This document shows, in pieces, positions 4,681-18,447 of a stretch of DNA of 38,751 nt. Made by a program: the position numbers and the translations under genes. Origin of the DNA: an uncultured Candidatus Actinomarina sp. (GTDB taxonomy: Bacteria; Actinomycetota; Acidimicrobiia; Actinomarinales; Actinomarinaceae); contig CACOKA010000006.1 of NCBI GenBank assembly GCA_902627635.1, positions 1-38,751 on the forward strand. Reading direction: 5' to 3'. The notes under the pieces were generated by a model, which did no database searches, was not told where the DNA came from, and saw only the letters and a list, made by a program, of their open reading frames with translations. Position 1 is the first letter of the stretch; each line of letters opens with the position of its first letter.

Positions 4681-5172
4681 ATGAATAATATTCTATCTAT
4701 CAAGAGAACTAAGAATCTTGATTTTCCAAGAGATGAAGTATGGAATTTAATAACTACTCCAAATTATTTAAATGAGACTCATCCATTTTGTAAAAACAAT
4801 ACTGTTGTCAGATGGCCAGGTATCGGATCAAAAGATATTTTAGAGTATCTAAGTGGGCTTACATTTGAAAGAGAGTTTACTCAATGGGATGAAAATGGTT
4901 ATGACTTAATAATTGGAACCAAGAATGGAAAAAAGTCGAGAGTGAAATGGAGGCTATCAGGTAATGAAGAATTATCTGAATTATCTATTGAGATTAACAC
5001 CTACCCCCTTAAAAAATTTCCCGGTCCTTTGTATATAATTCCCTTTATTTTTCAAATTAATCCTATGTTGAATCGATATCTAGATTCAGTTTTAGGAGGT
5101 ATTGAATATTTTTTACAATATAAAAAACCTGTTCCAAGAAATCATTTTGGAACTCATAAATGGTTTTCTTAA
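4681..5172 (+). CDS. SRPBCC (START-like) family protein
   Basis: N-terminal pattern FPRDEVWNLITTPNYLNETHPFCKNN...WPGIGSKD typical of SRPBCC folds. Confidence 0.6.
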   Translation: MNNILSIKRTKNLDFPRDEVWNLITTPNYLNETHPFCKNNTVVRWPGIGSKDILEYLSGLTFEREFTQWDENGYDLIIGTKNGKKSRVKWRLSGNEELSELSIEINTYPLKKFPGPLYIIPFIFQINPMLNRYLDSVLGGIEYFLQYKKPVPRNHFGTHKWFS

Positions 5173-11664: not shown

Positions 11665-14280
11665 CTATTCGTAAGAAATAGCCTGAAGAATGTTCTGTCT
11701 TGATGCTCTAATTGCTGGAAGGATTGCAGCAATTACTCCAGCAATAATTGAAATTCCAATCCATAATGCTGTTTGTGGAACAGATACTGCAAATACAGTA
11801 AAACCTTCATCTGCAAGTGTTTGGATAAGACTCCATGCAAAAAATATTCCCAAACTTGTTCCTAAGGCTGCACCAAATATTGAAATTATTGATGATTCAA
11901 TGAAAATCATTCTTCTAATTTGTTTTCTATAAGTTCCAATAGCTCTCATAAGGCCTATTTCTCTGGTCCTTTCAAACACAGAAAGAGACAATGTATTAGT
12001 AATACCAAACAATGCAACAAAGATTGATATCGATAAGAATCCGTAAATTACATTTAAAAGTAGCTGAATTTGATTATTTGCTTCTTCAACGAGACCATCT
12101 TCATCTCTTATTTCTACCCCTGGATATTCATCAACAATTGCATTAATTTTTTCCTCTAATTCTGGAGTCTTTTTATCAACATTAAAATATAGTTCTGTAT
12201 CTAAGGATTCATCTGCAAAAAAAGAGTTGTTTTCAAGTAGAACAAAAAATTCAGCTGGGGGTTGTGTCGTCCAGTCAAATATATAAGAGACCGTAAAAGT
12301 TCTTTCTCCTTCTTCGGGGATTGTTAAGACAACTTCGTCTCCAACAAAAAGCTCTTCTCTTTCTGCTGTTTGTTTTAGTATGCCGATTGCATTTTCACCA
12401 AGAAAGTCTTTTCTCTCACCAGATATATCATCTGTTTTTACGAGATCAAACACAGTCTCATCAACAGCTCCTAGTATTAAAGGCCTATCGTTGAATCCAA
12501 CGACTGTAGCTCTTGTTCTTGATAGCTTAGTTACTTCATCAAGTTGCAGAAGCTCATCTGACAAACCTGTTGGGATGCCTGGAGAGGCAAAAACATTTGC
12601 TGCACTGACTTGGTAATCGGCAAGAATAACTTCACTGATTAGTGACTCTGCCTGAGCTTTAAATGAGGTTGTTATGACGTTAGCTAATGAAATTAGCGTA
12701 AGTCCAATCATTAATGCTGACGCAGTAGATGCGGTTCTTCTAGGTGTTCTTTTAGAGTTTTCTGTTGCTAATTTTCCTAAAATTCCAAATAATAAATTGT
12801 AAATCTTATCAAAGAAGAAAACGAAAGGTTTAGTTATCGATGGAGTGATAACTGAAATTCCGATAAATATTACGCCTGCACCAAGTCCAACTTGCTGTAG
12901 AGATGATAAAGTAGGAACGTCTAGAAAATCATACAAAACTCCAAACAACACTCCAAATCCAACTACAGAAATTAGAGAACCAAATAAAAGTCTTACAAGT
13001 AAAGATTTTCTTTGAGGTGTTGAAACACTGTCTCTGATTGCTTCCATTGGGCTAACCTGTGATGCTTTTCTAGCTGGAAGTAGAGAAGAAAAAATTGTAA
13101 CAGTAATACCAATAACTAATCCAACAACTGCTGCCTCTGTAGTGAGAACTAGGGGTCCGTCAGGAAGACCAAATTCAAAATACTGCAATCCTTCTTTTAC
13201 TGCGACGGCTAGACCAATTCCAAGTGCGATACCAAGTCCTGATCCGATTATTGACATAAACAATGATTCAGATATAACCAATCTATAAATTTGTCTTTTG
13301 GACGTGCCAAGAGCTCTAAGTAAAGATAATTCTTTAGTTCTTTGAAGCAAAAGTATTCTAAATGTATTTTGAATAATAAAAGCGCCGACAAAAATTGCTA
13401 TTCCTGCAAAGACGTTAAGTATTGTATTGAAAAAGTCAAGACCTTGTTTAATTGAATCAGCTTGTTCAGCTGCAGCCTCTTGGGCATTAATTACATTTAA
13501 GTTTTCTGAATCTAAGTTTGTTATGTCATTTTTTACATTATTAATATCAAAATTATTTTCTATAACTACATTAATAAGATCTACTTCACCTTTTGAATCA
13601 AGAAGTGCTTGGGCAGTTCTAAATTCAAATAAGGCAAAAGTTGCCCCACCTGGTGCTCCAACGTTAGCAAACTCAGCTATTCCAACAATTGTAAATGATG
13701 CAGGCGTTGCTCCAGCTAAAACTGTCACTCTATCTCCTACTAAAAAGTTATGATTTTCAGCAGTCAGGACATCCATGACTACCTCTTTTCTATTTGTTGG
13801 AGGTTGCCCCTCTACTAGTGACCACTGCTGTGCATAGGGGTTATTATCCCAAGCTGCACCAAATGTAGGAGCAAATCCATTAGAAATTAATACTGTTTCA
13901 CCATCTACAATTTTTATGAATTGTGCAAAACCCAATACTTCACCCCATGCAGCCTTCACGCTAGGTAAATTAGTTATTTCTTGAATTCTATTGTCAGGAA
14001 TCTTTTTAACTTCAAAAGATATGGGCCCTTGTCCTCCGTCTCCGCTAAAGCCTTGTGCAAAATCCTCTTGTATTGGTTGTACAACTAGATCAACCCCTTC
14101 GTATATTCCTGAAAATAAATTATCAAATGCAGATTTATTACTTTCTGAAAAAATATTTGAAGCAATGATTACCGCAACACCAAGAATTATGGAGGATGTA
14201 GTCAAAAAGATTCTTACTGGATAAGTTTTTAAGTTTTTCCAAGCAATCAGAAAAAGTGGGCGTTTTGTAAATCCAAACAT
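11665..14280 (-). CDS. FtsX/MacB-like ABC transporter permease with two FtsX domains
   Basis: 871 aa; LLLQRTKELSLLRALGTSKRQI and SVFERTREIGLMRAIGTYRKQI, both hallmark FtsX-domain motifs. Confidence 0.9.
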   Translation of the reverse strand: MFGFTKRPLFLIAWKNLKTYPVRIFLTTSSIILGVAVIIASNIFSESNKSAFDNLFSGIYEGVDLVVQPIQEDFAQGFSGDGGQGPISFEVKKIPDNRIQEITNLPSVKAAWGEVLGFAQFIKIVDGETVLISNGFAPTFGAAWDNNPYAQQWSLVEGQPPTNRKEVVMDVLTAENHNFLVGDRVTVLAGATPASFTIVGIAEFANVGAPGGATFALFEFRTAQALLDSKGEVDLINVVIENNFDINNVKNDITNLDSENLNVINAQEAAAEQADSIKQGLDFFNTILNVFAGIAIFVGAFIIQNTFRILLLQRTKELSLLRALGTSKRQIYRLVISESLFMSIIGSGLGIALGIGLAVAVKEGLQYFEFGLPDGPLVLTTEAAVVGLVIGITVTIFSSLLPARKASQVSPMEAIRDSVSTPQRKSLLVRLLFGSLISVVGFGVLFGVLYDFLDVPTLSSLQQVGLGAGVIFIGISVITPSITKPFVFFFDKIYNLLFGILGKLATENSKRTPRRTASTASALMIGLTLISLANVITTSFKAQAESLISEVILADYQVSAANVFASPGIPTGLSDELLQLDEVTKLSRTRATVVGFNDRPLILGAVDETVFDLVKTDDISGERKDFLGENAIGILKQTAEREELFVGDEVVLTIPEEGERTFTVSYIFDWTTQPPAEFFVLLENNSFFADESLDTELYFNVDKKTPELEEKINAIVDEYPGVEIRDEDGLVEEANNQIQLLLNVIYGFLSISIFVALFGITNTLSLSVFERTREIGLMRAIGTYRKQIRRMIFIESSIISIFGAALGTSLGIFFAWSLIQTLADEGFTVFAVSVPQTALWIGISIIAGVIAAILPAIRASRQNILQAISYE

Positions 14281-15008
14281 CAGATATTTGTTAATGCTGT
14301 AACCTCTGCAACAATTTCTTCTTGGGTTGGTTGATTTAAATCACTAGCAATGCTTCCATCCTTTAACATAATTACCCTACTTGCATAAGAGGCAGCGTAC
14401 GGGTCGTGAGTAACCATGATTATTGTTTGATTTAATTCCTCAACAACAGACTTCATGAACGTTAAGAGCTCTTTACTTGATTTAGAGTCTAAGTTTCCAG
14501 ATGGTTCATCTGCAAAGATAACTTCTGGTTTTGTTGCCATTGCTCTAGCCGCAGCAACTCTCTGCTGCTGACCACCAGATAGCTCATTAGGTCTATGAGT
14601 TAGTCTGTCAGATATATCAACTGTTTCCACAACTTGTTTAATCCAGTCCATATCTGGTTTTCTACCAGCGATAGATGCTGGTAAAGTGATATTCTCTTCA
14701 GCTGTCAAGGTTGGTATTAAATTGAATGCTTGGAATACAAAACCAAAACTGTCTCTTCTAATTTTTGTCAATTGTTTATCATTTAAAGTTGATATATCTT
14801 GATCTTTAAGAAGAATTTGACCTGATGTTGGTCTGTCTAAACCAGCTAAGCAATGAAGTAACGTCGACTTTCCCGATCCAGAAGGACCCATTATTGCCGT
14901 AAATTCGTTTTCATTAAATTGGACATCTATATTATCAAGTGCTGTAACGCTGGTTTCTTTTTCTCCGTATACTTTTGTTAACTTTGTAGCTTGTATTATG
15001 TTTTCCAC
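14280..15008 (-). CDS. ABC transporter ATP-binding protein (LolD/MacB-type)
   Basis: Walker A GPSGSGKST, signature LSGGQQQR, Walker B VIFADEPSGNLD; overlaps the permease start. Confidence 0.93.
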   Translation of the reverse strand: MENIIQATKLTKVYGEKETSVTALDNIDVQFNENEFTAIMGPSGSGKSTLLHCLAGLDRPTSGQILLKDQDISTLNDKQLTKIRRDSFGFVFQAFNLIPTLTAEENITLPASIAGRKPDMDWIKQVVETVDISDRLTHRPNELSGGQQQRVAAARAMATKPEVIFADEPSGNLDSKSSKELLTFMKSVVEELNQTIIMVTHDPYAASYASRVIMLKDGSIASDLNQPTQEEIVAEVTALTNI

Positions 15009-15072: not shown

Positions 15073-15078
15073 GTATCT
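15073..15078 (+). promoter_or_regulatory. Putative -10 element (TATCTT) of leaderless trpL-like transcript
   Basis: TATCTT followed by 7 nt (aataaat) then ATG; TTGTTT 16 nt upstream as weak -35; no SD. Confidence 0.4.
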
Positions 15079-15086
15079 TAATAAAT

Positions 15087-15128
15087 ATGAAAAATGTAAT
15101 TAACTGGCATTGGTGGACAACTACATAA
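15087..15128 (+). CDS. Trp-rich leader peptide MKNVINWHWWTTT
   Basis: atg aaa aat gta att aac tgg cat tgg tgg aca act aca taa: three Trp codons in a 13-aa ORF directly before an attenuator terminator. Confidence 0.8.
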   Translation: MKNVINWHWWTTT

Positions 15129-15178
15129 GTAGGTGCCCCTGTTAGTTAGTTATTAAACCGGGCGCAGCCCGGTTTTTT
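15106..15178 (+). ncRNA. Tryptophan-type transcription attenuator (trp leader-like RNA), orphan
   Basis: Region 1 GGCATT (15106-15111) can pair with region 2 GGTGCC (15133-15138); region 2 GTGCCC (15134-15139) can alternatively pair with region 3 GGGCGC (15160-15165), which belongs to the terminator. Confidence 0.75.
15156..15178 (+). terminator. Intrinsic terminator of the Trp attenuator
   Basis: AACCGGGC-gca-GCCCGGTT followed by a T-run on the + strand. Confidence 0.9.
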
Positions 15179-15209
15179 TATTACTGTCACTGAAATTAGA
15201 TCTCCGGGC

Positions 15210-15680
15210 TCAACCCAGAATTGTGGTGGTTATCTCCTTCCACTCAGATACTAAAGGGCCTGTTTCGGACAGTACTAATGTATCAAACGTAATAGTTACG
15301 GGAATGAGGTTGTCAAAGTCCTTAGAAGGATAAGATTTTGGTAACTCGTTCCCGTAATAAAGTGACAGATGAGGAATCCATAGACTCGGCCATCCCTCTA
15401 TATCGATTATTGAGTTTTGAAAATTTGTATTATCTGTGGATGTTAAGAAAAGTCTCTGAAAATATGTTGTTCCCTCCTGAATTGTATCAAATGTAATATC
15501 AAATCTTTTTTTTGTTATGTTTTCAAATACATCCTTGGCTGTGTCTTTTGTACTTAAATTTGTCACCAGTGTGACATGGGGCTCAAAGTATTCTTTACCT
15601 TCATAATCTGAGAGAGTTCTAATTATTTTTTTTATCTCTGATAATTGTTCTGAAGAGGATTCAACCCATATTGAGTACAT
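15210..15680 (-). CDS. 2H phosphoesterase / cyclic phosphodiesterase-like protein
   Basis: Two H-x-[ST] motifs: PHVTLV and PHLSLYYG; FQRLFLTS. Confidence 0.75.
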   Translation of the reverse strand: MYSIWVESSSEQLSEIKKIIRTLSDYEGKEYFEPHVTLVTNLSTKDTAKDVFENITKKRFDITFDTIQEGTTYFQRLFLTSTDNTNFQNSIIDIEGWPSLWIPHLSLYYGNELPKSYPSKDFDNLIPVTITFDTLVLSETGPLVSEWKEITTTILG

Positions 15681-18411: not shown

Positions 18412-18447
18412 TTTTATTTTTCATAAATTCTGTATAATTGATTGCGT

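Follow-up and report, generated by a model that had tools for sequence, protein, structure and literature searches.

A probable tryptophan attenuator orphaned by loss of a trpB2-like gene in Candidatus Actinomarina

The 38,751-nucleotide stretch of DNA analyzed here (the window), from the genome of an uncultured Candidatus Actinomarina (OCS155), carries a short plus-strand element that is very probably a classical Trp transcription attenuator of a trpB2-like gene since lost from that genome. The first-pass annotation had described the element as an orphan Trp attenuator; that observation is confirmed and the element is orphaned in the window, but its cis gene can now be named, with trpB2 known in 15 relatives including the nearest one. 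The papers searched contained no mention of this leader or of orphan Trp attenuators.

The leader ORF, MKNVINWHWWTTT, lies at positions 15087–15128 of the plus strand and comprises 13 codons—ATG AAA AAT GTA ATT AAC, then TGG CAT TGG TGG, and ACA ACT ACA before the stop codon TAA—with Trp codons read from the sequence at 15105–15107, 15111–15113, and 15114–15116. Clustered Trp codons in a short translatable ORF are what is expected of a classical Trp attenuator, and the 13-residue ORF with Trp-His-Trp-Trp recognized at the outset was found to be conserved in 32 genomes. Indeed, W-x-W-W is present in every leader except two, namely those of G030 (LNWW) and G026 (WHW), the latter having lost one Trp codon through deletion. 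A −10-like hexamer, TATCTT (15074–15079, plus strand), is located 7 nt upstream of the ATG, and a TAnnnT-type hexamer was seen by eye ~5–7 nt 5′ of the ATG in nearly all aligned leaders, with the surrounding sequence unconserved. Given this spacing, the leader transcript is probably leaderless or nearly so.

Downstream of the ORF, the strong intrinsic terminator of the first-pass annotation was located by sequence and RNA folding at 15155–15179 (plus strand), as AAACCGGGC-GCA-GCCCGGTTT followed by a run of seven T residues, and none of its six G+C stem pairs varies across an alignment of 25 sequences. The leader RNA has a folding energy of −37.3 kcal/mol (z = −4.8), a value equaled by none of 200 shuffles. 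Two mutually exclusive folds are available to it, namely a long 1:2 hairpin together with the terminator, or the 2:3 antiterminator. The 1:2 pairing had been proposed as GGCATT with GGTGCC; a 1:2 hairpin is indeed predicted, but a far longer one, spanning 15096–15153 (plus strand; MFE −23.0 kcal/mol) and pairing most of the ORF with the pre-terminator spacer. Across genomes, the two arms pair in 289 of 348 cells; when the 3′ arm was shuffled 1000 times, the count averaged 241 and never rose above 256, the register having been picked per sequence alike for data and shuffles.

The 2:3 pairing stands as proposed, with region 2 (GTGCCC, 15133–15138, plus strand) forming the 5′ side of the antiterminator and region 3 (GGGCGC, 15160–15165, plus strand) common to the antiterminator and the 5′ arm of the terminator. 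All six pairs of this helix are present in 27 of the 29 leaders, and none of the 15 orphans lacks any of them; pairing holds in 98.6% of cells, compared with 26–42% in slid controls (both helices pooled). Its variants are GTGCCC/GGGCGC, GTGCCT/GGGCAT, and CTGCCC/GGGCAG, with the last of these (G007 and G063) being a compensatory G-C to C-G change. Furthermore, the 2-3-4 module pattern occurs in 28 of the 42 genus genomes, confined to the leader locus and one second, related locus, while the reversed control pattern gave no match in the same 42 genomes; the module is therefore not a product of chance. With the ribosome footprint assumed to reach 15 nt beyond the codon start, the antiterminator energy over all 29 leaders is −6.0 to −11.4 kcal/mol for a ribosome past the last Trp codon and 0 to −2.1 kcal/mol for one at the stop codon. 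As modeled, these energies fit a switch in which a stalled ribosome would free region 2 and a ribosome at the stop would mask it.

A further motif, TGTCACTGAAATTAGATCTCCGGGCTCAACCC (15185–15216, plus strand), was found 3′ of the terminator by a pattern search of the 42 genomes, with the core TGTCACTGAAA..CCGGGC..AACCC. It is present as one copy per genome in 24 of the 42, always at the leader, and the reversed control gave none. All 15 orphans carry it, as do trpB2 leaders of one type (in G062, a trpB2 genome, with one mismatch), whereas leaders whose terminator is directly adjoined by trpB2 lack it. The CCGGGC of the motif could compete with the 5′ arm of the terminator for its 3′ arm. Other identities were considered and set aside: a dispersed repeat, by the single copy per genome; a coding sequence, by single-base indels between genomes; and an operator palindrome, by the symmetry being imperfect, and weak in G024.

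A search at the DNA level, followed by one with a covariance model based on 25 leader copies, detected the leader in 32 of the 42 genus genomes, including all eight that are at least 90% complete. The covariance model found none outside the genus among the 296 genomes of the class that were sampled, and neither the leader nor the motif had a match in viral contigs. Among 4227 Rfam models, none matched the window at its gathering threshold or at an E-value threshold, and the best sub-threshold matches were chance-like. A locus at C1:64042 of G007 was also considered but rejected, since neither the leader there, MKIIINHHSRWSVF, nor the terminator stem agrees with the others. The 32 leader-bearing genomes divide into 15 with trpB2, 15 orphans (defined as having no plus-strand gene after the leader), and two (G007 and G063) with c18, a PEP-utiliser-domain gene (PF00391), as the only gene. 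In these two (L063 and L076), the leader is located directly 5′ of a c18 encoding 745–755 aa with a PEP-utiliser mobile domain. Elsewhere c18 sits behind trpB2, and so c18 has apparently taken over the Trp attenuator in G007 and G063.

In the 15 carriers, a trpB2-like gene encoding 451 aa and having its own Shine-Dalgarno sequence follows the leader directly, which makes the leader the predicted cis attenuator of a lone, putatively indole-salvaging Trp synthase. All 15 products match NCBIfam TIGR01415 (TrpB-like, TrpB2) at 604–616 bits, above the cut-off of 518.85. The same model also gives matches in E. coli, which we take to have ordinary TrpB only. It detected TrpB of either kind in none of the other 27 of the 42 genomes, and trpB2 is missing from every orphan genome. 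Judging from the family assignment alone, TrpB2 presumably makes Trp from salvaged indole and serine. Searches of the genomes, from which all gene absences reported here derive, found no trpA, trpC, or trpE in any of the 42 genus genomes, in agreement with the published report that auxotrophy for Arg, His, and Trp is shared by all Ca. Actinomarinales (PMC7771536). Members of the genus are thus predicted Trp auxotrophs devoid of de novo trp genes. The comparison with trpE leaders elsewhere in the genome, suggested in the first-pass annotation, accordingly has no counterpart in a genus lacking trpE, trpC, and trpA.

At the window locus, the gene order is FtsX and ABC, the leader, trpB2 and c18 where present, then the 2H phosphoesterase, znuB, znuC, and znuA, and finally zur. 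The conserved left-hand neighbors are an FtsX/MacB permease (11665–14280; synteny) and a divergent ABC ATPase (14280–15008, minus strand; profile match and synteny). The right-hand neighbor is, as had been recognized, a convergent 2H phosphoesterase or cyclic phosphodiesterase-like gene (15210–15680, minus strand; Pfam PF07823, 2.9e-8). The annotation of zur as the next plus-strand gene, with no trp gene downstream, also holds: no plus-strand gene lies 3′ of the leader in the window before zur at 18442, and a Trp-related gene on the same strand, absent here, is present (trpB2) in the 15 relatives. The nearest relative, G012, is 94% identical to the window in FtsX DNA, 98% in the leader ORF, and 100% in the hairpin and terminator, and retains trpB2. 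Alignment with G012 and G006 places the junction at 15216–15217, with ~1.35 kb missing: the relatives read ...CAACCCAAAAAGCTAAGGAG-ATG-trpB2-TAAAGTGGTTATCTCC, compared with ...CAACCCAGAATTGTGGTGGTTATCTCC in the window, the gap beginning just 3′ of the motif (...CAACCCA) and ending at the 2H gene end.

Since G012 combines a near-identical leader with trpB2, the orphan state of the window is best read as loss of its cis target, and, by the same sequence comparison, as young. Recent separation from a trp gene, named beforehand as something that would count against the first-pass annotation, is therefore borne out for the window, with G012 keeping trpB2; poor conservation of the Trp codons, raised alongside it, is not, with these codons and the alternative pairings being kept in orphan leaders. 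That trpB2 was lost rather than gained is argued from how implausible it would be for a Trp leader to have arisen before its gene. The source genome, with 812,883 bases, is 77% complete, such that trpB2 might still lie elsewhere in it.

The locus also recombines. The trpB2 genes of G012 and G006 are 95% identical although their FtsX genes are only 72% identical, and znuB is 100% identical between the orphan G018 and the trpB2-bearing G012, although FtsX is 73% identical. Among G000, G012, G018, and G006, identity leaps from 72% to 95–100% from one gene to the next, which argues that alleles with or without trpB2 move between species through homologous recombination. The FtsX-leader-trpB2-2H-znu region was observed to be strongly mosaic in all genomes (72–100% identity between neighboring genes), with breakpoints near the leader. 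Because the locus recombines, the FtsX/ABC tree is unfit to date losses cleanly, and the case for old orphans is built instead on shared junctions and on the types of leader. In one contig, L132 (BOWN01000001.1, titled Cryomorphaceae bacterium), an FtsX 94% identical to that of Actinomarina adjoins unrelated-looking sequence; this contig is therefore probably mis-binned or chimeric.

In the proposed mechanism, RNA polymerase would start at or adjoining the AUG. With ample charged tRNA-Trp, the ribosome would reach the stop codon (15126–15128) and cover region 2, allowing the 3:4 terminator to form and to yield a ~90 nt transcript. When Trp is scarce, the ribosome would stall on the Trp codons, regions 2 and 3 would pair, and read-through would follow in place of termination. 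Such read-through would yield trpB2 mRNA in the relatives, whereas in the window it would cover only the motif and sequence antisense to the 2H and znu genes. The window would carry a young empty allele, and a second, older class of empty allele, in 13 genomes, apparently keeps the switch under selection.

Trp attenuators are known in Actinobacteria, in the trp operons of Corynebacterium and in trp and trpS of Streptomyces, with C. diphtheriae having an attenuator before a trpB2A operon (PMC1262725). The Actinomarina leader resembles these in several ways: UGG codons cluster in a short ORF, the 2:3 and 3:4 hairpins exclude each other, and the terminator is GC-rich and followed by a U run. Judged on its sequence, the window leader possesses every feature of classical Trp attenuators except the downstream gene. 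In contrast to these attenuators, any gene that it regulates is a solitary trpB2-like one, within a genus that lacks trpE, trpC, and trpA; about half of the leader-bearing genomes have no gene at all, the start is predicted to be leaderless, and Rfam has no match. In Sinorhizobium meliloti, the 5′ end of the attenuator RNA rnTrpL is the AUG that opens a 14-aa Trp leader peptide, and both the rnTrpL RNA and the peTrpL peptide act in trans (PMC7298713). The Actinomarina transcript may also start at or next to the AUG of a Trp leader peptide. However, rnTrpL retains its cis gene, trpE(G), unlike the Actinomarina orphan, for which trans action is a possibility by analogy. To our knowledge, the cis gene has always still been present where attenuator products act in trans.

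A second attenuator was observed in 11 genomes (L083–L091, L093, and L094; for example, L083 at ~5032–5160), with a Val-rich leader, MQKLNVVQVVVYIHM, and the same GTGCCC / CCGGGCAC / GCCCGG module as the Trp leader. It lies 5′ of genes that, from a reading of the sequence, resemble those for isocitrate lyase and malate synthase (aceA-aceB). It shares leader-peptide logic with the ilvB-type branched-chain leaders of Actinobacteria (PMC1262725, PMC10272879), but precedes glyoxylate-shunt genes of the aceA-aceB type rather than ilv. A literature look-up of the E. coli aceB leader peptide, considered as a precedent, showed that it is not one. GTGGTGG encodes Val-Val in the Val leader and Trp-Trp, one frame apart, in the Trp leader, which suggests a common origin of the two, with the sensed amino acid altered by frameshift.

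Thirteen orphans carry a leader of type C (MxKxxNWxWW..), never found with trpB2, and fall on one side of a branch of the leader tree, with weak support (54/72). Averaged over nine distinct type C leaders, the ORF is 80% identical, the stretch from ORF to T-run 82%, the terminator stem 94%, and the motif 81%, whereas the sequence upstream is at 46–50% and that after the motif at 53%. Variable columns number 0 of 9 in the Trp codons and 19 of 30 in the other ORF codons (Fisher p = 0.001, with the columns not fully independent and the Trp codon of G026 lost by deletion). Similarly, G026 and G024, of the same orphan configuration, are 93–95% identical in the leader and 94% in the motif, but 60% in the spacer and 50% in the bases after the motif. 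By this evidence, the orphan switch has kept its shape for some time, although recombination together with repeated recent losses might produce part of the same pattern; retention without the cis gene looks selected. Some orphan peptides, for example in L013 and L023 (NWHWWSLHR), contain Trp, His, and Arg, the auxotrophies of the genus; this may be coincidence.

One tentative proposal is that a self-contained, relocatable Trp-sensing unit, comprising promoter, ORF, hairpins, and motif, has outlived its Trp gene and been selected as a trans-acting reporter of Trp, with the terminated ~90 nt RNA and/or the 13–14 aa peptide having a target of its own and its amount tracking Trp supply. The always-orphan type C leaders, which keep Trp codons, pairings, terminator, and motif between divergent flanks (46–53% identity), would be accounted for, as would the contrast between G026 and G024. 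The probable leaderless architecture resembles that of rnTrpL (PMC7298713), and in G013 and G060 the unit is located between gltB and an inositol-phosphatase-like gene, with their own ABC-2H locus intact and leaderless. However, the terminated RNA would be almost wholly base-paired, offering scant free sequence for a seed. Moreover, leader and trpB2 were lost together at five loci, and the attenuator unit is therefore dispensable in those lineages.

It is rather doubtful that orphan leaders are non-functional relics decaying after recent gene loss. That account is the best fit for the window itself, whose leader is near-identical to that of the trpB2-bearing G012, and agrees with the missing Trp codon of G026 and with the weaker, more widely scattered 1:2 energies of orphans (−17.9 ± 3.3, compared with −21.0 ± 1.3), but it leaves unexplained the conservation in divergent type C orphans and of a motif beyond the terminator. 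Re-acquisition, whereby the locus flips between trpB2 and empty states by homologous recombination and lineages keeping the leader can use a regained trpB2 at once, would suit the strong mosaicism with breakpoints near the leader and the sharing of orphan and trpB2 alleles by distant backgrounds (G018, G012, and G006). It is nevertheless unlikely, with none of the 13 type C leaders accompanied by trpB2 today and the relocated copies of G013 and G060 lying away from homologous flanks. Antisense action of read-through on the convergent 2H and znu genes, an option raised in the first-pass annotation, is disfavored and improbable: although read-through in the window would enter the 2H gene and znuB, the right-hand neighbor varies among orphans (2H, a zinc-transporter-like c17, znuB directly, or, in G013 and G060, the inositol-phosphatase-like gene), the leader in the last two lying elsewhere. 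A chance ORF beside an ordinary terminator, with only the shortness of the ORF in its favor, is excluded for practical purposes by conservation, covariation, and trpB2 synteny.

Attenuators are usually regarded as cis parts that are expected to vanish along with their gene. This genus of streamlined ocean bacteria offers a ready-made series of states—trpB2 behind the leader, trpB2 and a second gene behind it, the second gene alone behind it, a bare leader, a bare leader at another locus, and no leader—that makes functions of attenuator RNAs and peptides in their own right directly testable by comparative transcriptomics. The leader also suggests how these Trp auxotrophs may control indole salvage.
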